Below, in pieces: positions 8,399 through 26,059 of a stretch of 64,000 bases of DNA. The DNA comes from Roseovarius azorensis (GTDB lineage: Bacteria; Pseudomonadota; Alphaproteobacteria; Rhodobacterales; Rhodobacteraceae). Below the pieces are notes generated by a model, which did not search any database, was not told the DNA's origin, and saw only the letters and a program-made list of their open reading frames with translations. How positions within the stretch are numbered: the first letter of the stretch is position 1; every line of letters starts with the position of its first letter. The position numbers and the translations under genes are program-made. The stretch covers positions 62,001-126,000 of the forward strand of contig NZ_FOAG01000007.1 in NCBI RefSeq assembly GCF_900109455.1, given 5' to 3'.

Positions 8399-8412
8399 AA
8401 TTGGTTAATCCG
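8399..8412. promoter_or_regulatory. FadR-type operator upstream of the GntR regulator gene
   Basis: AATTGG-TTAAT-CCGG at 8399-8412 matches the TTGG-N5-CC core seen at 14206-14220, 23386-23398 and 26043-26059, though its right arm is degenerate. It lies about 130 bp upstream of the chosen regulator start, so autoregulation is likely. The site is assigned by similarity. Confidence 0.5.
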
Positions 8413-8603
8413 GCTCCGCGCTGAAGCTGCCATATGCCCGATGGTTAAGCCACCCGTTCATTAAACTCCCCACGGCATGCCTTGCGCGTAGAGATGGCCA
8501 AGCGCGGCGCCCGGCCAACACCAAGCCGATGGCCTAGCCGTAAACGCCGTCCGCCGTTCAGGGCCTTCCTCTATCGCCACCGCACCCTCGAGACGCAGGT
8601 CGA

Positions 8604-8666
8604 AACTACCTTGCTCTCGTCAAACTCATTTCAGCTAAAATCTAGATGCAATTCATGGGTCGGTGA
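8604..8666 (+). repeat. 63-bp direct repeat, left copy
   Basis: The block beginning AACTACCTTGCTCTCGTCAA and ending TCGGTGA recurs at 9151-9213 in the same orientation, same length, at roughly three-quarters identity. The two copies bracket the EthD-like gene. I do not recognise it as the end of a named insertion sequence. Confidence 0.6.
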
Positions 8667-8718
8667 CCTATAAATGCCCCCGGAACGCTCGGAGAGGCGT
8701 TCAGGTAGGAGCCCGACC

Positions 8719-9033
8719 ATGATCAAGATGAGCGTCTACTATCCGGCCCATGGCGGCTCGAAGTTCGACCACGATTACTACTGTGCCAGCCACCTGCCAC
8801 TGATCAGAGAACGAATGGGCGATGCCTGCCTGCGCTACGAGATCGAGAAGGGCCTAACGGGCCGCGAACCTGGAAGCGCGCCGGAGTTCGTCGCAGCGTG
8901 CCACATCTACTCACCGAGCCTGGGGACATTCCGGGAGGCGTTCGGCCCACACCGCGCGGAGATCGTCGCGGACGTCGCCAACTATACGGACATCGCACCC
9001 ATCGTGCAGATCAGCGAAATCGTTGGAGCGTAA
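8719..9033 (+). CDS. EthD-like small protein
   Basis: The 104-residue product from ATG 8719 begins MIKMSVYYPAHGGSKFDHDY and continues CASHLPLIRERMG, the usual opening of EthD-type ferredoxin-fold proteins. It ends with VADVANYTDIAPIVQISEIV, also typical. EthD was named from ethyl tert-butyl ether degradation clusters, where it is required but its reaction is unknown; relatives occur in many catabolic operons. Here it stands alone between two 63-bp direct repeats, divergent from the GntR regulator. An in-frame extension to 8674 lacks family sequence. The family match is good; a role with the nearby cluster is inference. Confidence 0.8.
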   Translation: MIKMSVYYPAHGGSKFDHDYYCASHLPLIRERMGDACLRYEIEKGLTGREPGSAPEFVAACHIYSPSLGTFREAFGPHRAEIVADVANYTDIAPIVQISEIVGA

Positions 9034-9150
9034 GGGCTTCGGTGCGTCAGGCTTGGCCGTTGTCCGGGATCGGCGTCGTGCTCGCCATGACCAGCTAACC
9101 GGTGCCGAACAGGTCCACGATCAGGAACGTGTCATTGCCATTCATGCGAC

Positions 9151-9213
9151 AACTACTTTGCTCTCGTCAAGCGCGCTTCAGCCAAAATCTGGATGCGCTC
9201 TATGAACCGGTGA
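9151..9213 (+). repeat. 63-bp direct repeat, right copy
   Basis: This copy begins AACTACTTTGCTCTCGTCAA and ends CCGGTGA, aligning end to end with 8604-8666 without gaps. The pair suggests a duplication or insertion event that brought in the EthD-like gene. Confidence 0.6.
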
Positions 9214-9567: not shown

Positions 9568-9999
9568 TTAGCCCTTGTCCGCGGCCAGGCCTACCTGTTC
9601 GACAGCGTGCGCCGCGCAGATTTCGTCGTTGTCCGATGTATCGCCGGAGATTCCGACAGCACCGAGGGTTTCGCCCGCTTCCCCGCGTATCAGGACACCA
9701 CCGGGAACCGGCACGATCTTCCCGCCGGAAACGCCGGACAGGGCTTGGACAAAATGAACACGCTCGGCGGCGGCCGCGTTCAGCCAGCGGGAGCCCGAGC
9801 CGACCGCCAGCGCGCCATAGGCTTTGCCAAAGGCGATCTCGAAGCGGAGCATGGAAGAACCATCCTGCTTCTGGAATGCGATGAGGTGGCCGCCTGCATC
9901 GAGCACCGCGACCGAGAGCGGCTTCAGGTTGAGCTCCCGCCCCCGATCCAGCGCGGATTCGATGATGCGATTGGCGACATTCAACGTGATGGTATTCAT
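9568..9999 (-). CDS. glcG: GlcG/HbpS-family heme-binding protein
   Basis: From ATG 9999 the product is 143 residues and begins MNTITLNVANRIIESAL. It contains the family blocks LSVAVLDAGGHLIAFQKQDG, RFEIAFGKAYGALAVG and VPVPGGVLIRG, ending in the usual GAVGISGDTSDNDEICA segment. GlcG proteins (DUF336) accompany glycolate oxidase genes; some relatives bind heme, but the role in glycolate metabolism is unclear. The gene follows malate synthase G by four bases on the same strand, so both are probably one transcript. In Escherichia coli glcG lies between glcF and glcB, so gene order has changed here, in keeping with the deletion upstream. Confidence 0.88.
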   Translation of the reverse strand: MNTITLNVANRIIESALDRGRELNLKPLSVAVLDAGGHLIAFQKQDGSSMLRFEIAFGKAYGALAVGSGSRWLNAAAAERVHFVQALSGVSGGKIVPVPGGVLIRGEAGETLGAVGISGDTSDNDEICAAHAVEQVGLAADKG

Positions 10000-10003
10000 T
10001 GTT

Positions 10004-12196
10004 TTATCCCGTTCCGAGAACGTTCTCGCCTGCCCCACTGGCCTTCAGCTCCAACCGGCGGGCGTGCAGAACCGGCTCGGTATAGCCGTTCGGCTGGGCG
10101 CGGCCCTGCAGCACCAGATCACACGCGGCCTGGAAGGCGATCGAATTCTCGAAATCCGGGGCCATCGGCCGATAAAGCGGGTCGCCCTCGTTCTGCCGGT
10201 CGACGACCGCCGCCATGCGCTTCATCGTCTCCATCACCTGATCGCGCGTACAAACGCCATGATGCAGCCAATTGGCGATGTGCTGCGAGGAGATGCGCAG
10301 CGTGGCGCGATCCTCCATCAGGCCGACATCGTTGATGTCCGGCACTTTCGAGCAGCCGACACCCTGGTCGATCCAGCGCACGACATAACCCAGGATGCCC
10401 TGGGCGTTGTTGTCGAGTTCCTTCTGGATCTCTTCGGGCGTCCAGTTCGGCCGCAGGGCGACGGGGATCGACAGGATGTCGTCGAGCTTGGCCTTCGGGC
10501 GGTTTTTGAAACCTTCCTGCACGGCGTGCACATCGACCTTGTGGTAGTGCGTCGCATGCAGCGTCGCGGCTGTCGGCGACGGCACCCAGGCGGTGTTGGC
10601 GCCGGCCTTCGGGTGAGCGATCTTCTCAACCAGCATCGCCGCCATCAGGTCGGGCATCGCCCACATGCCCTTGCCGATCTGGGCATGACCGGCAAGCCCG
10701 CACTCCAGGCCGGTGTCGACATTCCACGCTTCATAGGCGGAAATCCACGCCGCCTGCTTCATGTCGCCCTTGCGGATCATCGGGCCGGCTTCCATCGAGG
10801 TGTGGATCTCGTCGCCGGTGCGGTCGAGGAAGCCGGTGTTGATGAAGACGACGCGTTCGCGGGCTGCACGGATGCATTCCTTGAGGTTGACCGTGGTGCG
10901 GCGTTCCTCATCCATGATGCCCATCTTCAGCGTGTTGGGCTGCATGCCGAGCGCCTGTTCGACGCGGCCGAAAAGCTCGACAGCGAACGACACCTCCTCC
11001 GGCCCGTGCATCTTCGGCTTGACGATATAGACCGAGCCTGTCCGCGAATTGGCGCGGCGGCCATTAGGGCCGACATCGTGCAGCGCGATCAGGCTGGTGA
11101 TCATCGCGTCCATGATGCCTTCCGGAACCTCATTGCCGTCGCGGTCGAGGATCGCCGGGTTGGTCATCAGGTGGCCGACATTGCGCACCAGCATCAGCGA
11201 GCGGCCGGGCAGAGTCAGTTTGCTTCCGTCGGGTGCCGTATAGTCGCGGTCAGGATTGAGCTTGCGCGTGAACGTCTTGCCGCTCTTCGAGACCTCTTCC
11301 TCTAAATCGCCCTTCATCAGGCCGAGCCAGTTGCGGTAGACGGCGACCTTATCCTCGGCGTCGACCGCGGCGACCGAGTCCTCGCAGTCCTGGATGGTGG
11401 TAATGGCCGATTCCAGAATAACGTCTGAAATTCCAGCCTCGTCTTGGCTTCCGATGACGTGTTGATCATCAAGGATGATTTCGATGTGAAGGCCGTTTCT
11501 CGATAAGAGCAACGAAGACGGATTGTCGACGTCACCTAGGTACCCCGCGAATTGTGAGGGATCGCGCAACCCACCCTCCGAGGAGCCCGTCATCAGTCGA
11601 AACTGACCATCTTTAATTTGAGAACTGGTCATGTTTGACCAGCTGTCTGTCTTCAACGGCACGCTGTCATCTAAGAATGCTCGCGCCCACGCGATGACTT
11701 TCTCGCCGCGCTTGGGATTGTAGCCATTGCCCTTTTCGGCGCCGTCGGTCTCGGGAATGGCATCGGTGCCGTAGAGTGCATCATAGAGCGAACCCCAGCG
11801 CGCGTTGGCGGCATTCAGCGCATAACGGGCATTCATCACCGGCACGACGAGTTGCGGACCGGCGACGGTGGCGATCTCCGGATCGACGTTTTCGGTGGTG
11901 ACCTTGAAATCCGGACCTTCGTCCAGCAGGTAGCCGATCTCCTTGAGGAAAGCCTTGTAGGCCGCCATGTCGGACGGCGCGCCATTTTCGCGATGCCAGG
12001 CGTCGATCTTCTCCTGAATCTCGTCGCGCTTTTCGAGCAGCGCCCGGTTCTTCGGAGCGAGGTCGCGAACGATCTTGGCGAAGCCGGCCCAGAACTCTGC
12101 GAGCTTGATGCCGGTGCCCGGCATCGCGCGCTTGTTGACGAAATCGTAGAGCCCGCGATCGACCTGCAACCCGCCGACTTCGATTCGATTTGCCAT
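10004..12196 (-). CDS. glcB: Malate synthase G
   Basis: This 730-residue enzyme (start ATG 12196, [19 protein letters not shown]) condenses glyoxylate with acetyl-CoA to malate. Length is normal for the G isoform (about 723-730). Visible family blocks include [55 protein letters not shown], and [19 protein letters not shown] with the downstream [17 protein letters not shown]. The frame is open upstream of the ATG through a glcD remnant to 12538, but the first 114 residues belong to that other protein; 12196 restores the family N-terminus. It would capture glyoxylate from glycolate or from ether or glycol breakdown. It appears intact. Confidence 0.95.
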
Positions 12197-12915: not shown

Positions 12916-14148
12916 TCATCCGCAATAGATAATCTTGTCCTTCTCAAGTCGCGATATTTCATCGTCGCCGATGTTGAGGATTGAATTGAGGATGTGCTTC
13001 GTATGCTCCCCAAGCATGGGGGGGCTGATGGTGTACTCAATTTCTGTCTGAGAGAATTTGATCGGATTGGCCACGAGCGGCACGGTCTTGCCCGTGGTGT
13101 GGGGAAGATTGATCTGCAATTCGCGATGGACGACCTGCGGATGCACGAATGCCTGGTCGAGTCGGTTGATCGATGCGCATGGTACGCCGATGGGTTCGAG
13201 AAGCGCGATCCAGTGCTCGGTTGGTTCCTGGGCAAGGCGTTCGGCCACGATCGGGATCAGAGCGTCGCGGTTTTCCAAGCGATCCGTGTTTGTGGTGAAA
13301 CGGGGGTCGTCGCAGAGCACTTGCAGCCGGGACGCCGTGCAGAACTTCCTGAACTGCTGGTCGTTCCCCACCGCAAGCACGAATGATCCGTTGCTCGATT
13401 TGAACACCTGATAGGGCACGATGTTCGGATGGGCGTTTCCATATCGGCGCGGCGGCTTCCCCGTGGTCAGATAGTTCAAGTTCTGGTTGGCCAGAGCGGC
13501 AAGCTGGACATCAAGAAGCGCCATGTCGATATGCTGGCCCTCGCCCGTCCGCTCGCGATGCAACAACGCCGACAGCACACCTGTTGCGCTATACATTCCA
13601 GTGAGGAGATCGGAAATCGGGACGCCGACCTTCTGAGGGCCGCCGCCGGGCTTGTCGTCCGCCTCGCCCGTGATGCTCATCAGCCCGGATATGGCTTGGA
13701 TGGCCATGTCGTATCCGGCTACGTTTTTCATCGGGCCGGTCTGGCCGTATCCCGTAATGGAGCAGTACACGATGTCCGGCTTTATGAGCCGGAGCGCTTC
13801 ATAGTCTAGCCCATACCGTTTCATGTCGCCGACTTTATAGTTCTCTATGAGAACGTCGGTCTTCCTGACCAGAGATCGAACGATGTCCGCGCCTGCTTGC
13901 GTGGCGATGTCCACGCAAATCGAGTGCTTGCCGCGATTGGCGCTCAGGAAGTAGGCACTCTCGGTTGTTCCATCAAGATGCGGTGGCCCCCAGTGGCGAG
14001 TGTCGTCGCCGGTGAACGGGCGTTCGATTTTCCAAACCGTCGCCCCTAGATCGGCCAAGAGCTGCCCGAGCCAAGGGCCCGCAAGAATCCTCGATAAATC
14101 GAGAATTTGGTATCCGCTTAACGGTCCTGCCATATCAACAACCCACAT
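12916..14148 (-). CDS. CaiB/BaiF-family (class III) CoA-transferase
   Basis: The 410-residue protein has the family opening SGYQILDLSRILAGPWLGQ. The catalytic aspartate Asp147 lies in NVAGYDMAIQAISG, and the adjacent GLMSITGEADDKPGG and GEGQHIDMALLD blocks complete the signature. Class III enzymes move CoA between carboxylic acids, often from succinyl-CoA or a pathway thioester. Either ATG 14148 or ATG 14133 could be the start; the second gives the more usual N-terminus. It is divergent from the ABC importer operon, and tandem FadR-type palindromes (14193-14220) lie in the shared region, so it is probably controlled by the GntR protein. The substrate acid is unknown. Confidence 0.9.
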   Translation of the reverse strand: MWVVDMAGPLSGYQILDLSRILAGPWLGQLLADLGATVWKIERPFTGDDTRHWGPPHLDGTTESAYFLSANRGKHSICVDIATQAGADIVRSLVRKTDVLIENYKVGDMKRYGLDYEALRLIKPDIVYCSITGYGQTGPMKNVAGYDMAIQAISGLMSITGEADDKPGGGPQKVGVPISDLLTGMYSATGVLSALLHRERTGEGQHIDMALLDVQLAALANQNLNYLTTGKPPRRYGNAHPNIVPYQVFKSSNGSFVLAVGNDQQFRKFCTASRLQVLCDDPRFTTNTDRLENRDALIPIVAERLAQEPTEHWIALLEPIGVPCASINRLDQAFVHPQVVHRELQINLPHTTGKTVPLVANPIKFSQTEIEYTISPPMLGEHTKHILNSILNIGDDEISRLEKDKIIYCG

Positions 14149-14192: not shown

Positions 14193-14220
14193 CTGGAGTT
14201 ACCAGATTGGTCAATCCAAT
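14193..14220. promoter_or_regulatory. Tandem FadR-type operators between CoA-transferase and importer
   Basis: Two palindromes abut: CTGG-AGTTA-CCAG at 14193-14205 and ATTGG-TCAAT-CCAAT at 14206-14220, the latter a perfect inverted repeat. Both share the TTGG-N5-CCAA plan found at the other sites in this cluster and resemble the TGGT-N3-ACCA core known for FadR-subfamily GntR regulators. The position can control both divergent transcripts. Confidence 0.65.
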
Positions 14221-14267: not shown

Positions 14268-14331
14268 TTGACGAAACTGCGAATCTGGTCTATACAAATT
14301 GGTCTACAACAAGGCCGCCGGGAGGGCGGCC
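14268..14331 (+). promoter_or_regulatory. Importer operon promoter with overlapping half-site and leader hairpin
   Basis: TTGACG at 14268-14273 and TATACA at 14291-14296 are spaced by 17 bases, a strong sigma-70 pattern. ATTGGTCTACAAC (14298-14310) overlaps the expected start point and looks like a half operator. A GC hairpin, GGCCGCC-GGGAG-GGCGGCC (14313-14331), follows in the leader. AGGGAGG (about 14360-14366) is the ribosome site for the ATPase gene. Confidence 0.6.
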
Positions 14332-14375: not shown

Positions 14376-15494
14376 ATGGCGCGAATATCGCTCCAAAATG
14401 TCTCCAAGTCGTTTGGTGGCGACCAGGGCCCTTGGGCCGTTAATAAATTCTCCCTAGAGGTAGAAGACGGCGAGCTCGTTGTTTTTGTCGGTCCTTCGGG
14501 ATGCGGAAAATCGACGACACTGCGGATGATCGCTGGCCTCGACGACACCACGTCGGGCACCATCACGATCGGCGGGCGGGATGTCACCGGTCTGCCACCG
14601 AAAGATCGCAATGTTGCGATGGTCTTTCAGAACTATGCGCTGTATCCGCAGAAGTCGGTCTACGACAACATGGCGTTCGGCCTACGGGTGCGCGGTGAAG
14701 CGAAGCAGGAGATCGACCGGCGCGTGAGGGCTGCAGCGGCCAGCCTAGACCTCGAATCCCTGCTCCACCGCAAACCGCGACAGCTGTCGGGCGGGCAGAT
14801 GCAGCGTGTGGCACTCGGGCGTGCGCTCGTGCGGGACCCCGATGTTTTCCTTCTGGACGAGCCGCTTTCCAATCTGGATGCGAAGCTGCGCGTCAAGATG
14901 CGGGAAGAAATCGCGACGCTCCATGCCCGTCTCGGGGCAACGATGATCTTCGTGACACATGACCAGGTCGAAGCAATGACGCTTGGAGACCGTATCGTGA
15001 TCATGCGCGATGGCCTGATCCAACAGGCTGGGAAGCCTCTCGAACTCTACGATCGGCCTGCAAACACGTTCGTAGCCGGGTTTATCGGTTCGCCCGAAAT
15101 GAACCTGATCGACGGGCAGTTGTCCGACGCAAGCGGGCGGCTCGAGGTGCGATCGGGAGACCTTTCGGTAGGCATACCAGAAAAGACCTTCGCCAGGAGC
15201 GGACAGAACGTGACGCTTGGAATCCGGCCCGAGCACCTCGTCATCTCTAACGGCTCGCCGCTTGAGATGACCGTGAACTTGGTCGAGCAGATCGGAGCGC
15301 AGACTTATCTCATGGGCACGCTGGCCGGCCATAAGATGCGTGCCGTCCTCCAGCGTCGTGATGAAATCCGCGCCGGTGACAAACTCCCTATCGCCTTCCC
15401 GAGTGAGCGGCTTCACCTGTTCGACTCCATTAGCGGTGCGTCGCTGCGGATGGCGCAAACGGGCGGCAAAATCGGCGTAATGGAAAATGCGTAA
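14376..15494 (+). CDS. ABC importer ATPase, UgpC/MalK type
   Basis: From ATG 14376 the product is 372 residues. It has Walker A GPSGCGKS (39-46), signature LSGGQMQRVALGRAL, Walker B VFLLDEPLSNLD and a switch histidine in MIFVTHDQ. The C-terminal third is the regulatory TOBE region of carbohydrate-type (CUT1) importers, with the FIGSPEMNLIDG block. It powers uptake through the two permeases at 17112-18938. An upstream frame to 14268 lies over the promoter and was not used. It is the first gene of an operon that runs at least to 22134. Substrate cannot be told from this subunit. Confidence 0.93.
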   Translation: MARISLQNVSKSFGGDQGPWAVNKFSLEVEDGELVVFVGPSGCGKSTTLRMIAGLDDTTSGTITIGGRDVTGLPPKDRNVAMVFQNYALYPQKSVYDNMAFGLRVRGEAKQEIDRRVRAAAASLDLESLLHRKPRQLSGGQMQRVALGRALVRDPDVFLLDEPLSNLDAKLRVKMREEIATLHARLGATMIFVTHDQVEAMTLGDRIVIMRDGLIQQAGKPLELYDRPANTFVAGFIGSPEMNLIDGQLSDASGRLEVRSGDLSVGIPEKTFARSGQNVTLGIRPEHLVISNGSPLEMTVNLVEQIGAQTYLMGTLAGHKMRAVLQRRDEIRAGDKLPIAFPSERLHLFDSISGASLRMAQTGGKIGVMENA

Positions 15495-15703
15495 TGGCCC
15501 CCTGCGAGAGCGGCGGGTCAGGCTGATACTGCGCCCCTGGACCGTGGAGGGCGTCACCGGACTTCAGTAGGAGCTCTGTGTCGCGTCCTAACGATAGCAC
15601 CTCTGGAGCGTCATAAAGGAGGGTCAACGCTATACTCGATACCGGCGACGTTAATTCTTGGCATTTGGCTTGAACTGACAAGTTAACAAGGGAGGAGCAG
15701 GAA

Positions 15704-17053
15704 ATGAGCATTTACATTCCAGGTAGAGTGAGAATGGCGGTAGGCTTGTCCGGCATGACCCGCCGCAACTTTCTTAAATCCGCTGCCGCCGTCGGAGCAG
15801 CAAGCCTCGCGGCGCCTGCGGTGGTGCGGGCCCAGTCCGGCGTCACGCTTCGGTTTCTCAACAACGAAACTTCGGTCGCTAGTCAGGCAGCCCTGAAAAA
15901 AGCGTGCGACGACTACGAAAGCAAATTCGGCGTCAAGATAATCGTCGATTCGAGCCCCATTAGCGGCACGATGCAAAAAGTGATGGCGGCGGTCGCTGCC
16001 GGCCAGCCCTATGACATCATGACTTCCGGGTTCATCGCTGGAATCTTGGAGTATATTCACGCCGGCGCCATCGTCCCGGTGACCGACCTGGTCAAAAAGT
16101 ATGACTGGGGCAAGAAGGCCGCATGGGAGTATCAAGGTGAGAACTGGTACTATCCGTTCGATTACAACCTCGTCGTAAATTATTACCGGAAAGACCTCTA
16201 TGCCCAGAAAGGTCTGAAGATACCGGAGACGTGGGACGACTTCTTGAAGAACTGCCAAGCGCTTACAGTCGTTAATGGTGGAAATGTTGACGTCGGCGGC
16301 TGTGTCATACCTCTTGCAAGCGACAGCTCGACCAACTGGGCGAGCTTCGGCAATATGTTCGCCGAAGGCGCGGAGCTCTTTGACAAAGACTGGAATGTCG
16401 TTTTCGACCAGGGCGAGAACGCTGATCGTGCCACGCGCTTCTTGGATTTCTACGGCGAGTTGTACAAGACGATGCCGCCCGGCATGAACGCCGTGAGTTA
16501 TGCTCAACTAATGAGTCTCTTCGCCACCGGAAAGGCGGCACACAGTGTCTATTCTGGTCGGTTGGTCGAAGCGCTTGAAACGACTAACCCAGAACTCGCC
16601 GATAAGTACGGAATATTCCCCTCGCCTGGTAGTACCGGTCAAAAGGCACTTTCATATGCTTTTGACGGCTTCTGCGTAGGGAAGTCGAACCAAAGCGAGG
16701 AGGCGATTAAGTTCCTTCAGTGGTTTGCAGAAGAGCATTACGTCGATTGGCTGCTTTCAGCATGGATGAACAACCATCCGGCGCGCCTGGACATCTATGA
16801 GAACGAGCGTTGGAAGAGCCATCCCATGATCAAGAAGCATTGGAATACGATGATGACGATGAAGTCCTACATTGAAGGCGACAACATCAAGATCATGGCA
16901 ATCGACACCAGCGGTCCTTCGATCGACATGCGTGCTTGTAACGTATTCAACGCGAATGTCATGCCGGAAATGCTCCAGCAGAAAGTCCTCGGCAACGCCT
17001 CGTCGGCTGATTGCGTCGCCGCGACTGCGCAACGCATTCGCTCCGTCATCTAA
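15704..17053 (+). CDS. ABC importer substrate-binding protein (family 1), Tat-exported
   Basis: This 449-residue protein has a twin-arginine signal TRRNFLK (residues 19-25), a hydrophobic stretch, and a likely cleavage at VVRA-QS (about 43/44). The mature part is a family-1 extracellular solute-binding protein, with DLYAQKGLKIPETWDDFLKN and WYYPFDYNLVVNYYRKDLY typical of the fold. Tat export suggests folding in the cytoplasm. A strong AGGGAGGAG ribosome site precedes ATG 15704; ATG 15755 would remove 17 residues before the signal. A GC hairpin follows the stop codon. The ligand is unknown; these proteins usually take sugars, polyols or related compounds. Confidence 0.92.
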   Translation: MSIYIPGRVRMAVGLSGMTRRNFLKSAAAVGAASLAAPAVVRAQSGVTLRFLNNETSVASQAALKKACDDYESKFGVKIIVDSSPISGTMQKVMAAVAAGQPYDIMTSGFIAGILEYIHAGAIVPVTDLVKKYDWGKKAAWEYQGENWYYPFDYNLVVNYYRKDLYAQKGLKIPETWDDFLKNCQALTVVNGGNVDVGGCVIPLASDSSTNWASFGNMFAEGAELFDKDWNVVFDQGENADRATRFLDFYGELYKTMPPGMNAVSYAQLMSLFATGKAAHSVYSGRLVEALETTNPELADKYGIFPSPGSTGQKALSYAFDGFCVGKSNQSEEAIKFLQWFAEEHYVDWLLSAWMNNHPARLDIYENERWKSHPMIKKHWNTMMTMKSYIEGDNIKIMAIDTSGPSIDMRACNVFNANVMPEMLQQKVLGNASSADCVAATAQRIRSVI

Positions 17054-17058
17054 CTGCA

Positions 17059-17089
17059 GATCGGGGCGGCCTCCGCTGCCGCCCCGATC
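17059..17089 (+). terminator. Perfect intra-operon hairpin after the binding-protein gene
   Basis: GATCGGGGCGGC (17059-17070) pairs fully with GCCGCCCCGATC (17078-17089) across a 7-nt loop. There is no T-run, and the permease gene follows in the same direction at once. Such hairpins usually protect the upstream message from decay or attenuate reading onward, giving more binding protein than permease. Confidence 0.65.
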
Positions 17090-17111
17090 GTTCGTTCAAG
17101 GGATGATTCTT

Positions 17112-17984
17112 ATGGTTCAGGACCGGCGAATTGTTGCATTGTTTATTGGCAGTATCTCCTTGCTCGCATTTATTATTGGCGGCCCGTTGATTTACGCGGT
17201 TATGCTATCATTCTATTCGGCCCGTTCGTTTATGAGCGAACCCGAGTGGGTCGGCCTGAGCAACTACATCAAGGTATTGCAAGATCCTCTTTTCTGGAAT
17301 TCGTTGACGAACGGCCTCACAATCGCGCTTTCGTCGATTGTCCTGCAGGTAGTTCTGGGCGTTGGAATAGCGATGGTGCTTAACAAGCGCTTTGTTGGCC
17401 AGACCATTGCACGTTCGATCGCTATTCTTCCCTACTTCCTGCCGACAGTTGTCGCCTGCCTAGTGGCCCAATGGATTCTCGAGCCAAACTACGGATTGGT
17501 AAAGACCGCTCTGGCATCCATCGGTGTTGGAATGCTCGATTGGAGTTCTCATGCCTTCACGGCCAAAGGCACAATCATACTCGTCAGTGTGTGGTTGTGG
17601 ACACCTTTTGTCGTAACCTGCGTTCTAGCTGGTTTGCAGACGATCCCAACGCAACTTTACGAAGCTGCTCGCGTCGATGGCGCCGGTGCTTGGACGCAAT
17701 TCTGGCACATCACGATACCAGGCTTACGCTCGGTTCTGATCGTGGTCATCCTTCTGCGTGGCATCTGGATGTTCAACAAGTTCGATCTGATATGGCTTTT
17801 GACAAAAGGCGGGCCGCTCAACCAGACAGAGACCTTGCCTACCTTAGCCTATCGGAAGTCGTTTATTGAGTACAACCTGGGCGGGGGCGCCGCTGTGGCA
17901 ACGATCTCCTTCCTCCTGCTCTCAGGCGTCATTCTCATCTATCTGCGCCTGTTCCCCATCGATGATGCAAAGCAAGGGCGATAA
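17112..17984 (+). CDS. ABC importer permease 1 (MalF/UgpA type)
   Basis: The product is 290 residues from ATG 17112, which has an AGGGATG ribosome site; ATG 17103 is an alternative three codons earlier. It has six predicted membrane segments, the first at about residues 8-30 (ALFIGSISLLAFIIGGPLIY). The EAA coupling loop (LYEAARVDGAGAWTQFWHI, near residue 190) contacts the ATPase. An open frame extends upstream into the binding-protein gene but carries no family sequence. Its partner permease starts three bases after its stop. Together with the ATPase and binding protein it forms a complete CUT1-type importer. Confidence 0.9.
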   Translation: MVQDRRIVALFIGSISLLAFIIGGPLIYAVMLSFYSARSFMSEPEWVGLSNYIKVLQDPLFWNSLTNGLTIALSSIVLQVVLGVGIAMVLNKRFVGQTIARSIAILPYFLPTVVACLVAQWILEPNYGLVKTALASIGVGMLDWSSHAFTAKGTIILVSVWLWTPFVVTCVLAGLQTIPTQLYEAARVDGAGAWTQFWHITIPGLRSVLIVVILLRGIWMFNKFDLIWLLTKGGPLNQTETLPTLAYRKSFIEYNLGGGAAVATISFLLLSGVILIYLRLFPIDDAKQGR

Positions 17985-17987
17985 GAA

Positions 17988-18938
17988 ATGAAGAGCCATG
18001 TAGAGCGATTGCCCGTTGATTCCAGTCGCCAGATACCTGAGCGCGAACCGATTCGTCCGAGATCGTCGCTGCAACACGGGAGCAAGGTTCAGGAAAGCAC
18101 TTTCTGGAAACCATTCAAAAAGCTATCGGCAAAAATTGCCCTTTATGCAACCGTACTCGTTATCTGTCTTTATTCACTCTTTCCGATATACTGGATGATC
18201 ATTTCGAGCCTAAGGCCCGCGGAACGCCTTTTTCTCGATACATCTCTCGTTTTCTGGCCGCCGGACCTGACGTCTTACGTCTCCCTCTTCCGGCAGACGA
18301 ATTATATCGTCAATTTTCTGAACAGCGCTCTGATGGCGGTTGCGACGATTACCGTCTCCCTCGTGCTGTCGGCATTTGTCGCTTACGGCGCCACCCGGCT
18401 GCGCTTTCGGGGCAAGACTATGCTCGTTGCATCGATGCTTTTTGCCTACATGTTCCCACCCCTCATGCTGGCCATCCCAATGGCGGCAGCTTTCCGAACG
18501 ATCGGCCTCACCGACACACTGTGGGGGCTGTTGATCGCCCATCTCGCAATTTCGCTGCCGCTGGCGGTGTGGTTGCTCTGGGGTTTCTTCAAGTCAATGC
18601 CGTTTGACCTTGAGGAGGCTGCGATGGTTGACGGCTGTTCTCAGTTCGAAGCGTTCATCAAGGTCGTCTTGCCATTGTCCGCTCCCGGGCTCATCACTGT
18701 CGCCATCTTCTCGTTCCTTCTCTCTTGGGCCGACTATGTGTTCGCGCTGATACTTATTATGAGCGACCAAAGAAAGACGCTCCCCGTTGCTCTGCAGTCG
18801 TTGCTCGGCGCGCATGATTTGCGTTGGGGTGAAGTCTTGGCCGGCGCTTCGCTGATAGCTCTGCCTTTGTTTGTAATATTTATCTTTTGCTATCGGTACT
18901 TCGTCGCCGGGCTGTCAGCGGGTGCGGTGAAGGGATGA
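17988..18938 (+). CDS. ABC importer permease 2 (MalG/UgpE type)
   Basis: This 316-residue inner-membrane protein has a hydrophilic N-terminal tail of about 45 residues, then six membrane segments, beginning with IALYATVLVICLYSLFPIYW. The EAA loop reads DLEEAAMVDGCSQFEAFIKV. The tail is longer than usual for MalG-type permeases, and a later start is possible, but ATG 17988 is close behind the previous gene. It pairs with permease 1 to form the channel. The GMC oxidoreductase gene follows 75 bp downstream in the same direction, so uptake and first oxidation are probably co-expressed. Confidence 0.9.
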   Translation: MKSHVERLPVDSSRQIPEREPIRPRSSLQHGSKVQESTFWKPFKKLSAKIALYATVLVICLYSLFPIYWMIISSLRPAERLFLDTSLVFWPPDLTSYVSLFRQTNYIVNFLNSALMAVATITVSLVLSAFVAYGATRLRFRGKTMLVASMLFAYMFPPLMLAIPMAAAFRTIGLTDTLWGLLIAHLAISLPLAVWLLWGFFKSMPFDLEEAAMVDGCSQFEAFIKVVLPLSAPGLITVAIFSFLLSWADYVFALILIMSDQRKTLPVALQSLLGAHDLRWGEVLAGASLIALPLFVIFIFCYRYFVAGLSAGAVKG

Positions 18939-19013: not shown

Positions 19014-20663
19014 ATGGCGAGCTACGACTATATTATCGTTGGTGCAGGTTCGGCCGGATGTGTTCTGGCAACTCGCCTGAGTGAAGACGCTAATGTGAGC
19101 GTATTGCTGATTGAGGCGGGCGGGGGGAAGTCGATGTTTGTCGATATGCCCGCCGGAATCAAGGTTCTCTATACGAGCGGTCGATACAACTGGCGGTTTT
19201 GGACTGAGCCGCAGCAACATCTAGACAATCGCCGGATCTATATCCCCAGAGGGAAGGTCATAGGAGGGTCGTCATCGATCAATTCCATGATCGCTATGCG
19301 CTGCAACCCGTGGGACTACGATTCGTGGGCGTCTCGGGGCATGCCTCAGTGGAGCTTTGCCGCGATGCTCCCCTATTTGCGCAGGATTGAGGATGCGAGC
19401 CTGGTCGCTGAACCTGATAATGGAACGCGTGGGCACACCGGGCCCATTAAGCTTTCCTACGGGCCACGGCGCCCGACCGCCCAGGCGTTTGTCGACAGCC
19501 TCCTCGCCGCCGGTTTACCAGAGAACCATGGATTCAATGGACCCTCGCAGATAGGCGCAGGTTTCTACGAACTTACGATAGCAAATGGAAAGCGGTCCGG
19601 CTCATTCAAGTACCTGGAACGCGCCAAGGGACGCCCGAACCTCACCATCCTCTCCAATAGTCATGTTCGTCGCATTAACGTTGAAAGAGGTGGTGCCCGT
19701 GGCATCGTCCTGGTCCAGAACGGCCGCGAGAAGACGATCAACTGCGATCGAGAGGTTCTGCTGACGGCAGGCGCGATCGGATCGCCGCAGCTTTTGATGC
19801 TGTCTGGTATTGGGCCTGCTGATCATATGAAGTCTTTCGGCATCAAACCCGTTCACGATCTTCCGGGCGTGGGCGAGAATCTTCAGGACCACCTGGACCT
19901 CGCGGTTCGCTTCGAGTCATCGCAACCGACGACGTTGACCCCCTATATGGGCCTCCTGAGGGGCGGCATGGCCGGCGCTCGGTATATTCTCAAAGGCGAT
20001 GGTCCGGCCGCTTCGCAGGCCGTGGAGGCGGGAGCGTTTTGGGGCCCTGACCGATCATCTCCGTTGCCGGAGTGGCAGGCACACTTTGCCAACGTCCTCC
20101 GCAATCCGCCGGCCGGCGAGCGTATCGCTCACGGTTTCGCTGTTCGCGTATGTCAGCTCAGGCCACAAAGTCGCGGTACGGTAAGATTGCGAAGCGGAGA
20201 CCCCGCCGTTCCACCGGCGATCGACCCGCGTCTTGCTTCCGAACGTGCAGACCTCGAGAGCCTGAGAGATGGCACGCGCGATATGTGCGATATGATGATG
20301 CGCGGACCACTCAAGAACTTCATAAAACGTCCGTTGGATGCGGAAGTGTTCGGCAATCTCTCCGAGCAGGAGGCTTTCCTGCGAGCGCGGGCCGAGACGG
20401 TGTATCACCCCGTAGGGACCTGTCGCATGGGCGCTGACGATGCATCGGTCGTGGACCCGAGCATGAAAGTCCGCGGTGTTGATGGTGTACGGGTGATCGA
20501 CGGTTCGGTGATGCCAACGCTTCTAAGCGGCAATACGAACCTGCCGATTATGGCGATCGCCGAAAAAATCGCTGACGAACTCATCCACGGCGAAAGCGTT
20601 TCGCGTGATCACCCGATCGCTGGGGAGATGCTTGCGCACGGGCGCCACGCGCCCTCCTCCTGA
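19014..20663 (+). CDS. GMC-family FAD oxidoreductase (alcohol/choline dehydrogenase-like)
   Basis: The 549-residue enzyme starts with the FAD-binding motif YDYIIVGAGSAGCVLATRLS and has the GMC signature GKVIGGSSSINSMI near residue 85. The active-site His465 lies in YHPVGTCRMG, and the second catalytic position is Asn507/Asn509 in SGNTNLPIMA. GMC enzymes oxidise primary alcohols to aldehydes with FAD, including choline, glucose and polyethylene glycol. It lies directly after the importer permeases, so it probably performs the first oxidation of the imported compound. The aldehyde dehydrogenase at 27734 could take the next step. Substrate is not determined by sequence. Confidence 0.92.
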   Translation: MASYDYIIVGAGSAGCVLATRLSEDANVSVLLIEAGGGKSMFVDMPAGIKVLYTSGRYNWRFWTEPQQHLDNRRIYIPRGKVIGGSSSINSMIAMRCNPWDYDSWASRGMPQWSFAAMLPYLRRIEDASLVAEPDNGTRGHTGPIKLSYGPRRPTAQAFVDSLLAAGLPENHGFNGPSQIGAGFYELTIANGKRSGSFKYLERAKGRPNLTILSNSHVRRINVERGGARGIVLVQNGREKTINCDREVLLTAGAIGSPQLLMLSGIGPADHMKSFGIKPVHDLPGVGENLQDHLDLAVRFESSQPTTLTPYMGLLRGGMAGARYILKGDGPAASQAVEAGAFWGPDRSSPLPEWQAHFANVLRNPPAGERIAHGFAVRVCQLRPQSRGTVRLRSGDPAVPPAIDPRLASERADLESLRDGTRDMCDMMMRGPLKNFIKRPLDAEVFGNLSEQEAFLRARAETVYHPVGTCRMGADDASVVDPSMKVRGVDGVRVIDGSVMPTLLSGNTNLPIMAIAEKIADELIHGESVSRDHPIAGEMLAHGRHAPSS

Positions 20664-20751: not shown

Positions 20752-22134
20752 ATGGCCGATTTTGATGTTGACTTGGCAGTAATTGGTGGTGGTTCAGGCG
20801 GGGTCCGCGCCGCACGGGTCGCTGCTAGCTATGGAGCCAAGGTCATCGTTGCTGAAGGAGATCGGGTCGGCGGCACCTGCGTTATCCGTGGCTGCGTACC
20901 AAAAAAGCTTATGGTCTACGCTTCAGATCTCCAGAAAGAGATCGGGAACGCGGCTGGCTTCGGATGGTCGGTCCCCCCAGCAAAATTCGATTGGGGAGTA
21001 TTGACGGCAAACAGAAACAGGGAAGTCGCCCGTCTCGAGATGGCATATACGTCGACGATCGAACGTTCGGGAGCGCGCCTAGTGAAAGAGCGCGCAACGT
21101 TCCAAGACGCACGCACCTTGCGTCTTGCCAATGGGGAGACGGTGCGCGCTCGAAATATACTTATTGCCACTGGCAGCACGCCGAACCACGGGGAGGCAAT
21201 ACCTGGCATCGAGCATGTCATCTCGTCCGACAAGGTCTTTGAGCTTCGTGAACTGCCGCAGCGGATCCTAATTCAAGGAGGGGGCTACATTGCGGTTGAG
21301 TTCGCATGCATATTCGCCGGTCTCGGTTCGAAAGTGACCTTGGTTTGTCGCAGCGACAACATCCTGCGCGGTTTTGATGAAGACGTAAGGGCACATGTTC
21401 GTCGTGCTCTGGAGGAGCAGGGAATTCTGGTCGTCACCTCCTGCTGGATCAACAGGGTTGACAGGATTGACGAAAGCAGCGGGCTATTGAAAGCTAGTCT
21501 TTCAAACGCTGAACAGCTCGTCGCAGACCAAGTCATGTTTGCGATTGGACGAAAGCCCAACACGCAGGACCTAAATCTCCAGAATTCTGGCGTTGCGCTA
21601 AGCCCTGACAGCGGCGGCGTCGCGGTCAACGAGAACTCGCAGACCAATGTGCCCCATATCTACGCGGTCGGCGACGTGACAAACCGCGTAAACCTTACCC
21701 CTGTAGCGGTGCGCGAGGGCCAGGCCTTTGCAGATTCGGTATTTGGCGAGCGTCCCACGCAGGTCGACTATGCGGATATCCCGACTGCGGTTTTCTCGCG
21801 TCCGGAAGTCGGATCCGTTGGGCTATCAGAGGCACAAGCCTGTGCCCTGTTTGAAAGGGTGGACATCTACAAAACGGATTTTCGGCCCATGAAGGTCGCC
21901 CTCTCCCACAGCTCCGAACGAATGATGATGAAGCTCGTCGTAGATGCAGATTCCGGGAGGGTTGTCGGCTGCCATATTGTCGGATCAGGCGCGGCGGAGA
22001 TCATCCAGGCAGTTGCGATTGCGATAAGAATGAAAGCCGTAAAGGAGGACTTTGATGCAACAATGGCTCTTCATCCAACAGCGGCGGAAGAACTTGTCAC
22101 GATGCGGACACCGACCAAGCGCTGCGTTCGATAA
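20752..22134 (+). CDS. gor: Glutathione-disulfide reductase
   Basis: From ATG 20752 the 460-residue flavoprotein has an N-terminal FAD motif (AVIGGGSGGVRAAR), the redox pair Cys43/Cys48 in GGTCVIRGCVPKKL, the NADPH-binding ILIQGGGYIAVEFACIFAGL, and the C-terminal HPTAAEE with His441 and Glu446. GCVPKK and HPT-x-EE are marks of glutathione reductase rather than lipoamide dehydrogenase. It would regenerate GSH with NADPH, matching the glutathione transferase gene at 25135. The open frame extends to 20605 but the FAD motif fixes the start. It is the last gene of the importer operon before the IS graveyard. Confidence 0.9.
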   Translation: MADFDVDLAVIGGGSGGVRAARVAASYGAKVIVAEGDRVGGTCVIRGCVPKKLMVYASDLQKEIGNAAGFGWSVPPAKFDWGVLTANRNREVARLEMAYTSTIERSGARLVKERATFQDARTLRLANGETVRARNILIATGSTPNHGEAIPGIEHVISSDKVFELRELPQRILIQGGGYIAVEFACIFAGLGSKVTLVCRSDNILRGFDEDVRAHVRRALEEQGILVVTSCWINRVDRIDESSGLLKASLSNAEQLVADQVMFAIGRKPNTQDLNLQNSGVALSPDSGGVAVNENSQTNVPHIYAVGDVTNRVNLTPVAVREGQAFADSVFGERPTQVDYADIPTAVFSRPEVGSVGLSEAQACALFERVDIYKTDFRPMKVALSHSSERMMMKLVVDADSGRVVGCHIVGSGAAEIIQAVAIAIRMKAVKEDFDATMALHPTAAEELVTMRTPTKRCVR

Positions 22135-22810: not shown

Positions 22811-22814
22811 GGCG

Positions 22815-23358: not shown

Positions 23359-23400
23359 TTGACTGAGAAAACTGGATATGCCAAATTGGTCAAACCAGAT
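23359..23400 (+). promoter_or_regulatory. Promoter-like sequence with tandem FadR-type operators
   Basis: TTGACT at 23359-23364 could be a -35 box. CTGG-ATATG-CCAA (23372-23384) and TTGG-TCAAA-CCAG (23386-23398) follow in tandem, the same arrangement as at 14193-14220. TGGTCAAACCA exactly fits TGGT-N3-ACCA. They lie about 70 bp before the FAD oxidase start, a natural place for repression. Confidence 0.62.
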
Positions 23401-23468: not shown

Positions 23469-25121
23469 GTGGCGAAGGAAAAGAGCGGCTACTATGGCAC
23501 GCGAAGGAAATTCTGGTCGTGGGGATATGAAGGTGAAGATAACTCCCAGGACGAAATCCGTACCATGCGAGACCGCGTGGAGCAGCGGCTTGGGATTAAG
23601 GATATCGAAGTTCTCTCGGACCCGACCCTTGATGAGATTGAACTTTATCCGTCGCGCATAAAGATCCCGCGAACGCTGGAAGATTTCTGCACCACGGAAA
23701 AGTGGGACAGAGTTGTCCATACCTACGGTAAGGGTTTTAAGGACATGACCCTTATCTACCGGCGCGATTTCAAGAAGGCTCCGGACGTCGTGGCCTATCC
23801 GCGCGACGAAGAAGATATTGCCGCCATCTTCGACTGGTGTGGCGAAAACGGCTATGCATGCATACCGTATGGCGGTGGATCGAGCGTCACAGGAGGCTTC
23901 TGGGGTCCCGAGCGCGACGCCTTTCCCGGCGTGGTCGTTATTGACCTGGGCAACCTCAACCAGATTCTCGAAATCGACCCTGTGTCACGCTGCGCGCGGA
24001 TCCAGGCAGGCATTCTCGGGCCGGCTCTGGAAGAACAACTGAAGCCGCACGGCCTCACCCTGCGCCATATTCCGCAATCGTGGGAATTCTCATCGCTGGG
24101 CGGCTGGATCGCAACCCGGTCGTCCGGTCACTATGCGACCCATCTCACGCATATCGACGACATGGTGGAAAGCCTGCGCGTCGTCACGCCAGCGGGGACG
24201 ATCCAGAATCGCCGGCTGCCTGCCTCAGGTGCGGGACCAAATCCGGATCGCATGTTCATCGGGTCTGAAGGCACGATGGGCATCATCACTGATGCATGGA
24301 TGCGTCTGCAGGGGCGTGTGAAATTCCGTGCGAATGCATCGATCTCCTTCAAGTCGTTCTATGAGGGTGCCAAGGCCGTCCGTCAAATCACCCAAGCGGG
24401 ACTGTTCCCGGCGAACGCTCGCTATCTCGACGAGCAGGACGCCAAATTCTACGGCGCTGGAGACGGCACCGATTCCGTCTTGCTGCTGGGCTTCGAATCC
24501 GCCGACCATCCGGTGGACGCATGGCTGGAGCGTGGTCTCGAAATCTGCAAGGACTTCGGTGGCGTCGTGAAGCAGCGCGCGGGAACAGCAGACAACGCGC
24601 TGGAAACCAGCCGCAGCGGGCCGCAGGGTAACTGGCGGCACCAGTTCAGGTATCTGCCCCGGCTGATGCATACGCGCGCTGCGATGGGAATCGTGAGCTT
24701 CACGTTCGAAACCGCCTATACTTGGGATCGGTTCGAAGAAGTCGATACCGAGATCATGCGTCGCGTGCGAACGGCCCAGAAGGAACATCTTGGCGGTGGC
24801 ATCGTCTGCCGCAGGTTCTCCTTCCTGTATCCGGACGGTCCGGCTCCATACTACTCGATCATGGCTCCTTCGACACATGCCAACAGCCTCGAAGCCTATT
24901 CGATGCTCCACGACGTGGCGTCGGACGCCCTAATAGAGCTCGGCGCCACCATCACGCACCATCATGCTGTCGGCAAATCGTTCCGTCCTTGGTACGACAA
25001 AGAAGTCGATCCGTTGTTCCGCCGTGTGCTGGCAGCCGCCAAGACCGAGCTGGACCCGAAGTGGATGTTGAATCCTGGGCTGATCGTCGACAAGCCCACA
25101 GGGCTCAAGATCGTCGGATAG
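23469..25121 (+). CDS. FAD-linked oxidase, alkylglycerone-phosphate synthase (AGPS)-like
   Basis: From GTG 23469 (AAGGAGG seven bases upstream) the product is 550 residues. The FAD-binding half has IPYGGGSSVTGGF and the AGPS-type block PQSWEFSSLGGWIATRSSGH, then RMFIGSEGTMGIITDAW. The C-terminal half ends with a three-histidine motif, THHHAVGKSFRPWYDKE (His497-499), which matches the active-site histidines of AGPS. AGPS exchanges an acyl for an ether-linked alkyl group; the wider family (GlcD, D-lactate dehydrogenase) oxidises 2-hydroxy acids. With the GST gene 13 bp behind, I infer an ether- or hydroxyacid-cleaving oxidase. Family is firm, reaction uncertain. Confidence 0.88.
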   Translation: MAKEKSGYYGTRRKFWSWGYEGEDNSQDEIRTMRDRVEQRLGIKDIEVLSDPTLDEIELYPSRIKIPRTLEDFCTTEKWDRVVHTYGKGFKDMTLIYRRDFKKAPDVVAYPRDEEDIAAIFDWCGENGYACIPYGGGSSVTGGFWGPERDAFPGVVVIDLGNLNQILEIDPVSRCARIQAGILGPALEEQLKPHGLTLRHIPQSWEFSSLGGWIATRSSGHYATHLTHIDDMVESLRVVTPAGTIQNRRLPASGAGPNPDRMFIGSEGTMGIITDAWMRLQGRVKFRANASISFKSFYEGAKAVRQITQAGLFPANARYLDEQDAKFYGAGDGTDSVLLLGFESADHPVDAWLERGLEICKDFGGVVKQRAGTADNALETSRSGPQGNWRHQFRYLPRLMHTRAAMGIVSFTFETAYTWDRFEEVDTEIMRRVRTAQKEHLGGGIVCRRFSFLYPDGPAPYYSIMAPSTHANSLEAYSMLHDVASDALIELGATITHHHAVGKSFRPWYDKEVDPLFRRVLAAAKTELDPKWMLNPGLIVDKPTGLKIVG

Positions 25122-25134
25122 GGGTTCTTCAGCG

Positions 25135-25824
25135 ATGATTGATCTATACTTCTGGCCAACCCCCAACGGGTATAAAGCCGCTATAATGCTTGCAGAGCTG
25201 GACTTGGAGTACCGTGTTATTCCGGTTGATATAACCGCAGGAAAGCAATTTGAGCCGGAATTCCTGAAGATCAATCCAAACAACAAAGTGCCGGCCATCG
25301 TTGACCACGATGGCCCGCACAACAAGCCTTACGCTGTTTTTGAATCGGCGGTTGTTCTACTCTATCTTGCGGAAAAGTCCGGAAAGTTCCTTTCTCAGGA
25401 CCCGGAAAAACGATACGATACGCTAAAGTGGCTTGTGTTTCAGAATACCACGATGGGCCCAATGCTGGGCCAAGCACATCATTTCATGGTGTATGCGACT
25501 GAGAAGATCGATTACGCCATCGAACGTTACGACCGGGAAGTTGGTCGAATATACAACATTCTCGAGAAGCGCCTTGCCGAATATGAATATCTCGCCGGCG
25601 AGTATTCTATCGCTGACATCAGCACATTCCCTTGGGTTCGCACGCGGAAATTGCATCGACGCGACCTGTCGGAGTACCCGAACATTGATCGTTGGTACCA
25701 GGCGATCAAAGACCGTCCGGGGGTTCGTGCGGGCATAGACACATTGTCCGACAGCAAGCAGTGGGAAGCGAAGCCGGGCACCGACGCTTGGAAGAATATG
25801 TTCGGAAAGAACGGCAGTTCGTAA
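25135..25824 (+). CDS. Glutathione S-transferase, Nu-class (YfcG/YghU) like
   Basis: The 229-residue protein begins MIDLYFWPTPNGYKAAIMLA, with Thr9-Pro10-Asn11 at the glutathione site as in YfcG. NPNNKVPAIVDHDGP and FESAVVLLYLAEKSGKFL complete the thioredoxin-like half, and MLGQAHHF is the YfcG-type helix. Nu-class enzymes bind two glutathiones and act as disulfide reductases; other GSTs in ether catabolism cleave beta-aryl ethers. It starts 13 bp after the FAD oxidase, so the two are one transcript, and a glutathione reductase lies in the upstream operon. A strong hairpin follows. The glutathione link is clear; the substrate is inferred. Confidence 0.9.
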   Translation: MIDLYFWPTPNGYKAAIMLAELDLEYRVIPVDITAGKQFEPEFLKINPNNKVPAIVDHDGPHNKPYAVFESAVVLLYLAEKSGKFLSQDPEKRYDTLKWLVFQNTTMGPMLGQAHHFMVYATEKIDYAIERYDREVGRIYNILEKRLAEYEYLAGEYSIADISTFPWVRTRKLHRRDLSEYPNIDRWYQAIKDRPGVRAGIDTLSDSKQWEAKPGTDAWKNMFGKNGSS

Positions 25825-25845
25825 CAATCACACAAAATCCTCCCA

Positions 25846-25884
25846 GGCCTCAGGCGCGGCGGTCTATTCGTCGCGCCTGAGGCC
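25846..25884 (+). terminator. Long hairpin after the GST gene
   Basis: GGCCTCAGGCGCG (25846-25858) pairs perfectly with CGCGCCTGAGGCC (25872-25884) across 13 nt. There is no T-run, but the position, 22 bp after the stop codon and before a new promoter region, suits transcript termination or 3'-end protection. Confidence 0.6.
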
Positions 25885-26016
25885 GCGTAGGGGCAGTTGA
25901 TGCAGGGCGGTCCCTATGGGGCTGGCGCAGGATCTTGGAAATTTTGCGCGGCCGAAATGCCGTTTGAAATCGCCCAATACGTGACCACGAACTCGGCTGA
26001 TGGATCCACTATCTAC

Positions 26017-26059
26017 TTGACAGCCAGTAAATTGGATGACCAAATTGGATATACCAATT
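26017..26059 (+). promoter_or_regulatory. Promoter-like sequence and FadR-type operators before the CoA ligase
   Basis: TTGACA (26017-26022) is followed by TTGG-ATGA-CCAA (26032-26043) and the perfect palindrome AATTGG-ATATA-CCAATT (26043-26059). These have the same architecture as the sites at 14193-14220 and 23372-23398 and lie 35 bp before the ATG. Confidence 0.62.

Follow-up and report, generated by a model that had tools for sequence, protein, structure and literature searches.

The window analysed here, a 64,000-nucleotide stretch of the Roseovarius azorensis genome (contig NZ_FOAG01000007.1, positions 62,001 to 126,000), carries a gene for a GntR-type regulator of the FadR subfamily together with genes of the kind found in clusters for ether-glycol degradation. 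Five composite sites, called operators A to E below, lie before the regulator, a CoA-transferase gene, a set of ABC importer genes, a FAD-linked oxidase gene and an acyl-CoA ligase gene (Table 1). An earlier sequence-only reading of this DNA had listed seven short palindromes at four places, three of them with tandem copies. All seven are in the sequence, and for six of them the positions given are exact; the degenerate palindrome placed at 8399-8412 is present, but is best read as TTGGTTAATCCGG at 8401-8413. The count of places needed correction, since another copy, the fifth, lies ahead of the importer (TGGTCTATACAAATTGGTCTACAAC, 14286-14310) and had been missed, and all five can be read as pairs, with A and B exact, C and D having a 4-base left spacer, and D and E having mismatched outer arms. 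The unit consists of two TGG-N5-CCA palindromes with centres 14 bp apart, joined in CCAAATTGG, and approximates TGG-N5-CCA-N3-TGG-N5-CCA.

Lone palindromes of the TTGG-N5-CCAA or TGGT-N3-ACCA type are at background level. For TTGG-N5-CCAA, the window holds three copies where 10 first-order resamplings average 1.0; with one mismatch allowed, the count is 28 against 21.7. In the 3.86-Mb genome, TGGTNNNACCA is found 18 times and its reversed control 57 times. An 11-bp matrix of the single palindrome failed to pick out the sites when the window was scanned. The pattern TGGT-N3-ACCA is the operator pattern of the FadR subfamily, and the exact fit proposed for TGGTCAAACCA at 23387-23397, which lies within operator B, was borne out. 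B is the only one of the five window operators with an exact fit, which recurs at four sites of a related cluster on a second contig of the genome (C13); among the remaining window units some fit TGG-N5-CCA, others have a 4-base spacer, and the rest are degenerate. A single TGGT-N3-ACCA unit is not statistically diagnostic by itself.

The composite behaves differently: composites are beyond chance, although single palindromes are not. CCAAATTGG occurs three times in the window against 0.2 in the resamplings (12 against 7.4 with one mismatch), and TGGN5CCANATTGGN5CCA occurs three times with at most one mismatch against 0 in 10 resamplings (6 against 3.0 with at most three), although these patterns were derived from the very sites that they count and their looser forms fall to background. 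The pattern CCANATTGGNNNNNCC is found at 13 places in the genome, five of them in the window and one on C13, against 0 for the reversed control; one of the five, near 6037, lies outside the operators. A genome-wide pattern search that allowed one mismatch gave 12 strand matches at nine places, five of the nine in the window or C13 clusters, and the reversed control gave nine strand matches, so that this pattern by itself is weak evidence.

Matrices with outside training provided the more telling comparison. A symmetric 25-bp matrix trained on four sites of the C13 cluster and one from Methylobacterium gnaphalii ranked the five sites first to fifth in the 64 kb (B 29.5, C 29.2, A 23.1, E 15.2 and D 13.4). 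The maxima of 60 second-order shuffles had a mean of 12.4, a 95th percentile of 16.6 and a highest value of 20.3, and B, C and A scored above all of them. A second matrix built from nine outside sites, including those of Xanthobacter dioxanivorans, again placed the five sites first to fifth, and here four exceeded the highest of 20 nulls; E came fourth and D fifth with both matrices. In the reverse direction, a window-trained matrix returned the C13 sites as the top five of their contig (14.0-16.0 against a null maximum of 14.3). Matrix registers were fixed and chosen by eye; a MAFFT alignment of the nine outside sites was dropped as a basis for the model because some copies were displaced by one 14-bp period. 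A profile made from the five sites found no additional site in the 3.86-Mb genome at E<=10; the five match their own profile by construction, and the informative part is the absence of others. The shared motif of the sequence-only reading thus stands for the composite and falls for the single palindrome.

The operators are also better conserved than the DNA around them. Compared with X. dioxanivorans, operators A and E keep 49 of 62 bases where their flanks keep 78 of 179, and operator B keeps 24 of 31 where its flanks keep 66 of 145, which amounts to 77-79% identity in operators against 44-46% in flanks, at the same promoters (the counterpart of A is at L044:7358). Compared with a Mesorhizobium metagenome-assembled genome (MAG), 85-94% of operator bases are kept against 70-81% in the flanks. 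Operator E is kept in all three aligned relatives (Nitratireductor, which is near-identical throughout and uninformative for conservation, the Mesorhizobium MAG and X. dioxanivorans) and operator B in the Mesorhizobium MAG, Pseudorhizobium and X. dioxanivorans. All 23 core bases of operator C are kept in both aligned relatives, and 22 of the 23 of operator D in the Mesorhizobium MAG. The regulator promoter of Pseudorhizobium carries CGGAGTTACCAATTTGGTAGACCGA, while in X. dioxanivorans the oxidase promoter has up to four phased units and the ligase promoter two TGGTATACCA units.

Table 1. Operators, regulator and pathway genes in the window (positions are those of the window)
Feature	Position	Strand	Basis and remarks
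GntR/FCD (FadR-subfamily) regulator, 242 aa	7541..8269	-	Pfam GntR PF00392 56.2 bits (cut-off 27), 2.7e-15; FCD PF07729 84.7 bits (cut-off 24.3), 8.8e-24
Operator D	8388..8412	.	CCGGTCTACCAAATTGGTTAATCCG; centre ~130 bp upstream of regulator start; 4-base left spacer, outer arms mismatched; weakest site
Operator A	14194..14218	.	TGGAGTTACCAGATTGGTCAATCCA; precedes CoA-transferase; exact fit to paired pattern
Operator E	14286..14310	.	TGGTCTATACAAATTGGTCTACAAC; precedes importer; outer arms mismatched
Operator B	23373..23397	.	TGGATATGCCAAATTGGTCAAACCA; precedes FAD oxidase; exact fit to paired pattern
Operator C	26032..26056	.	TTGGATGACCAAATTGGATATACCA; precedes CoA ligase; left spacer 4
Possible importer promoter TTGACG-N17-TATACA	14268..14296	+	Read by eye; second hexamer inside operator E
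Malate synthase G (glyoxylate sink)	10004..12196	-	Pfam; annotation
CoA-transferase family III	12916..14133	-	PF02515 3.3e-121; annotation
ABC importer: UgpC-like ATPase, solute-binding protein, two permeases	14376..18938	+	Pfam; annotation
GMC alcohol oxidoreductase (PegA-like)	19014..20663	+	Pfam; 63% identical to EY-1 GMC protein, 70% to X. dioxanivorans
Glutathione-disulfide reductase	20752..22134	+	Pfam Pyr_redox; annotated gorA
AGPS-like FAD-linked oxidase, likely ether-cleaving carboxylate dehydrogenase	23469..25121	+	Pfam; 91% identical to S. macrogoltabida EY-1 protein
Glutathione S-transferase	25135..25824	+	Pfam; 93% identical to EY-1
AMP-forming acyl-CoA ligase	26094..27608	+	Pfam; 66% identical to an EY-1 ligase
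Aldehyde dehydrogenase	27734..29170	+	Pfam; annotation
Iron-containing alcohol dehydrogenase	29688..30848	+	Pfam; annotation; downstream, without own operator among matrix matches

The operator accompanies a family of regulators. Identity to the window regulator is 91% in the Mesorhizobium MAG, 60-63% in X. dioxanivorans, 56% in M. gnaphalii and 42-43% for the paralogue on C13, and loci with 56-91% identical regulators carry the operator. We scanned 12 loci with a model trained on the window, C13 and L022. Clear matches were obtained in L044, L046, L053, L045, L058 and L055, as well as in the training locus L022; matches were borderline in L057 (17.6 against a null maximum of 16.8) and L056 (14.8 against 12.5), and no operator was found in L054 (whose regulator is 44% identical), L043 or L018. 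These loci are partly redundant, as L044 and L046 are near copies, L053 and L045 belong to one plasmid, and L046 and L058 to another. Seven loci (L044, L046, L053, L054, L055 and L056, each with a GntR match, plus L057) were opened from 132 plasmid records with a regulator match, 25 of the 132 being listed. Outside the training set, operators are found at the regulator promoter of Pseudorhizobium, before a second FAD oxidase-glutathione S-transferase locus of Ancylobacter, and in Variovorax. Pairing of the shared operator with a FadR-subfamily GntR regulator, as first proposed from the letters, agrees with the Pfam GntR and FCD domains, with this distribution and with the absence of the operator from an AraC-regulated Sphingopyxis cluster.

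A plasmid copy of the regulator in Aminobacter, identical to that of the window, is annotated as a FadR/GntR family transcriptional regulator. Residues D152, H156, H200, H222 and R108 are invariant in five of five homologues. In phmmer alignments the first four match D172, H176, H222 and H244 of NanR and R108 matches R128; according to an excerpt of PMC8012715, the former are zinc ligands and R128 forms a salt bridge with sialic acid. Because these metal and carboxylate residues are retained, the effector of the regulator is likely to be a carboxylate. The regulator itself falls outside NanR: its best NCBIfam match is NanR NF003011 at 114.3 bits, far under the cut-off of 260, there is no GGTATA in the five composites, and the protein has no long N-terminal extension. 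An EthD-domain gene and an HbpS-like (haem-binding) gene adjoin the regulator (8674-9033 and 9568-9999).

The gene set of polyethylene glycol (PEG)/ether-glycol clusters is complete in the window, with an alcohol oxidase, an aldehyde dehydrogenase, a FAD carboxylate dehydrogenase, a glutathione S-transferase and an acyl-CoA ligase. The best solved-structure match of the FAD oxidase is alkyldihydroxyacetonephosphate synthase. PCDH and glutathione S-transferase reportedly take part in PEG metabolism (Somyoonsap 2008), and the window oxidase would correspond to PCDH. In the PEG route as outlined in an excerpt of PMC7299911, which covers PegA, PegC and PCDH, an alcohol oxidase and an aldehyde dehydrogenase yield PEG-carboxylate, whose ether PCDH then cleaves to give glyoxylate. 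Sphingopyxis macrogoltabida EY-1 grows on PEG and polypropylene glycol (PPG) (PMC4669395), and its counterparts of the oxidase and the transferase sit on a plasmid. A plasmid cluster of X. dioxanivorans YN2 is syntenic with the window pathway. In an excerpt of PMC8508750, YN2 genes GE05986-88 (glcF, glcE and glcD) and the aldehyde dehydrogenases GE05991 and GE05994 are listed at 1.32- to 4.27-fold in five samples relative to citrate, a modest induction on dioxane. These numbers match the positions expected from the plasmid gene order for glcF, glcE, glcD and two aldehyde dehydrogenases, and by that order they probably correspond to the syntenic cluster. The proposal that one pathway links the window genes holds up; the "IS debris" said to split it was not confirmed as insertion sequence in 22120-23180, the part that was read.

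The frame of malate synthase G (10004-12538) is open for 844 aa, and its N-terminus holds a FAD_binding_4 piece. Pseudorhizobium has glcDEF between its CoA-transferase and regulator genes. The FAD_binding_4 piece may be a remnant of a glc gene; the N-terminal piece gave no match to the GlcE-like protein of Pseudorhizobium. The pantothenate synthesis genes panB and panC (31660-33368) lie just downstream of the pathway and are present on the Aminobacter plasmid too.

What the computation shows is a shared, conserved composite that goes with the regulator family, and the set of genes present. We consider it very probable that the five composites are operators of the regulator encoded at 7541-8269; in the best reading, this FadR-subfamily protein would repress an ether-glycol pathway until released by an ether-carboxylate intermediate. 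Two regulator dimers would bind the adjacent palindromes of each operator at the core promoter and block transcription. Five starts would be repressed: that of the regulator, of the CoA-transferase (perhaps with malate synthase), of the importer with the GMC oxidoreductase and gor, of the FAD oxidase with the glutathione S-transferase, and of the ligase with the aldehyde dehydrogenase. The effector would be an early carboxylate formed from the ether glycol, such as PEG-carboxylate, hydroxyethoxyacetate or glycolate, which might enter the predicted metal-containing pocket of the FCD domain and so release the repressor. The ether alcohol would then be oxidised to the acid and the acid cleaved to glyoxylate, which malate synthase would consume. 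Repression is inferred because of the placement of the operators at promoters and the analogy with GlcR of Paracoccus denitrificans; the TTGAC of the possible importer promoter is kept in four of four aligned loci.

Several observations weigh against this interpretation. No binding or expression data were found for the regulator, and a scan for consensus promoters lists no sigma-70 site at the operators, the importer candidate included. Operators E and D (15.2 and 13.4 with the held-out matrix) are within the range of null maxima, and the next match, in unrelated DNA, scores 12.5; these two therefore need comparative evidence, while B, C and A stand alone. With the window-trained matrix, the site in X. 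dioxanivorans that corresponds to E comes only eighth in 42 kb at 13.1, behind a 14.1 match elsewhere, and the whole-genome profile of the five does not report the C13 sites at E<=10. The regulator gene of X. dioxanivorans has no operator in the ~230 bp upstream of it and none among the top matrix matches; autoregulation is therefore not general. In Variovorax and Cupriavidus, regulators that are ~41% identical lie near a Rieske oxygenase gene with a similar operator, and the operator code therefore marks the regulator family rather than the ether pathway. A Shinella homologue (44% identical) has no operator nearby. Finally, the induction in YN2 is modest, and the excerpt of PMC8508750 terms the aldehyde dehydrogenases concerned constitutive though upregulated.

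In Variovorax sp. PDNC026, from plastic debris, a strong composite (L055:5559-5596) is located just before or at the start of the Rieske oxygenase gene, as is a borderline one in Cupriavidus metallidurans CH34 (L057:5606-5643). On plasmid p_1 of Sinorhizobium meliloti RCAM1115, a borderline composite (L056:15744-15768) lies upstream of the solute-binding gene of an ABC importer, and the regulator is 42.7% identical.

Among the alternatives, the one that survives best is a real regulon for a substrate other than an ether glycol, for example another compound that yields glycolate or glyoxylate. No NCBIfam enzyme family exceeded its cut-off for the seven enzymes scanned (for the ligase and the aldehyde dehydrogenase, among the best 25 matches shown). 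On the other hand, a PEG/PPG degrader has an oxidase and a transferase 91-93% identical to these, the cluster is syntenic with that on a dioxane degrader's plasmid, and the second Ancylobacter copy lies ~5 kb from alcohol dehydrogenase and 2Fe-2S genes. We regard another substrate as unlikely, though worth keeping in mind. That second copy, on plasmid pA of Ancylobacter polymorphus ZM13 (L058:1-13076), consists of a FAD oxidase-glutathione S-transferase pair with an operator, followed by malate synthase G; with the neighbouring 2Fe-2S and alcohol dehydrogenase genes it is possibly part of a cyclic-ether monooxygenase cluster.

Somewhat less likely still is that the regulator acts at the same operators as an activator or dual regulator, in the manner of E. 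coli GlcC on glcDEF. Members of the FadR subfamily work both ways, with GlcC an activator and the alphaproteobacterial GlcR a repressor in an excerpt of PMC11323563, and sites ~40-140 bp before the annotated starts suit either mode. Placement nevertheless suits occlusion, with E, as judged by eye for all three, overlapping a possible -10 hexamer and B and C just downstream of conserved TTGAC motifs.

We give lower odds to the possibility that the sites serve mainly the paralogous C13 regulator, or both regulators in common. The C13 promoters carry the same operator unit and the two DNA-binding domains have many residues in common. Relatives with the syntenic cluster, which were not searched for the paralogue, nevertheless have a window-type regulator adjoining it, and the window-trained matrix gives 14-16 on C13 against 41.1, 33.1 and 19.2 for the best three X. 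dioxanivorans sites, though further sites there score 13-14. Last, a chance or inherited likeness, with short palindromes retained only through recent movement of an island, is highly improbable: single palindromes are at background, D and E alone lie within null maxima and 23 kb is 100.0% identical to three Aminobacter plasmids, but the composite beats the shuffles at A, B and C and the X. dioxanivorans operators far exceed their flanks in identity. Chance is improbable for A, B and C, while D leaves some room for it.

In our view, the strongest sign that the operator arrangement is functional is its recurrence, with a diverged regulator, in the C13 cluster. The cluster (L017, 1-17610) encodes the paralogous GntR regulator, a FAD oxidase 78% identical to that of the window, and a CoA-transferase, glutathione S-transferase, P450, ferredoxin reductase, aldehyde dehydrogenase, ligase, zinc alcohol dehydrogenase and TRAP transporter. 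Three composites lie before the oxidase, the transporter and the alcohol dehydrogenase, and a single palindrome lies before the regulator. The C13 cluster probably serves another ether-type substrate.

The island that holds the regulon probably crossed between bacterial orders recently, since the 23 kb of window 7301-30300 are 100.0% identical to plasmids of Aminobacter MDW-2, NyZ550 and SR38, while window 34000-58000 has its best matches (36-59% coverage, 96-99% identity) in plasmids of Roseovarius, Tritonibacter and Octadecabacter. Nitratireductor arenosus and a Rhizobiaceae MAG both carry the regulator at 100% identity, another sign of recent spread. It is rare at the cut-offs used: searches recovered only the window's own genome, both among 100 relatives at E<=1e-40 and among 385 genomes of the class at E<=1e-50 (at most seven candidates scored per genome); it occurs in plasmids and contigs of other bacteria. 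The 34000-58000 region holds a block of RND and RbbA/HlyD efflux genes.

A bolder proposal, which we hold tentatively and at less than even odds, is that the FCD metal pocket of the regulator binds an ether carboxylate (PEG-carboxylate or hydroxyethoxyacetate), making the protein a direct sensor, and that regulator, pathway and a 14-bp-phased, multi-dimer operator move between alphaproteobacterial orders as a package. The regulator would then offer a biosensor for ether pollutants that is ready for use, and the diverged regulator-operator pair elsewhere in this genome would serve a different ether. PEG, diethylene glycol and dioxane intermediates are common ether-glycol pollutants, and the regulon would control a mobile pathway for them. 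The defined operator and regulator also offer a test of pathway membership, a means of searching for unlinked genes by their operators, and a candidate biosensor part. Among the matches listed from the open-licence literature, none described this regulator, and none described a GntR operator that controls an ether-glycol pathway.

Set beside known systems, the regulon is new and its regulator is of a familiar kind; relative to the sequence-only reading, the unit has been corrected and one more site added. The cluster on the X. dioxanivorans YN2 plasmid (NZ_CP063363) is like that of the window in gene set, gene order, regulator (60-63% identical) and operators at the same promoters; it differs in having glcDEF after the glutathione S-transferase, no malate synthase in the stretch, and the ligase and an aldehyde dehydrogenase before the oxidase. 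The PEG operon of Sphingopyxis is pegBCDAE with the AraC-type regulator PegR. It has the GMC alcohol oxidase, aldehyde dehydrogenase, acyl-CoA ligase, FAD carboxylate dehydrogenase and glutathione S-transferase in common with the window, but EY-1 has an AraC regulator, a TonB receptor and an MFS transporter where the window has GntR and an ABC importer. The EY-1 cluster served as a negative control: despite the 91-93% identical oxidase and transferase, it has no composite above its null and no GntR gene in the incomplete annotation of the stretch.

VanR of Caulobacter, an FCD GntR repressor, has an inverted repeat of the form TTGG..CCAA and lies beside a Rieske O-demethylase. It resembles the Variovorax and Cupriavidus loci and differs in its single short palindrome and aromatic substrate. 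E. coli NanR is like the window regulator in its metal and arginine positions and in a repeated operator bound by adjacent dimers; it differs, in an excerpt of PMC8012715, in using GGTATA repeats and a 32-residue N-terminal extension for cooperativity, where the window has TGG-N5-CCA palindromes 14 bp apart and an N-terminus ~20 residues shorter. GlcR of P. denitrificans, in an excerpt of PMC11323563, is described for glcDEF and is likened to the window regulator by that description, not by sequence. Like the window protein, it is an alphaproteobacterial FadR-subfamily regulator adjoining genes for a glyoxylate-forming oxidase, and it is a repressor that binds DNA less well in the presence of the small carboxylate glycolate (PMC11323563).

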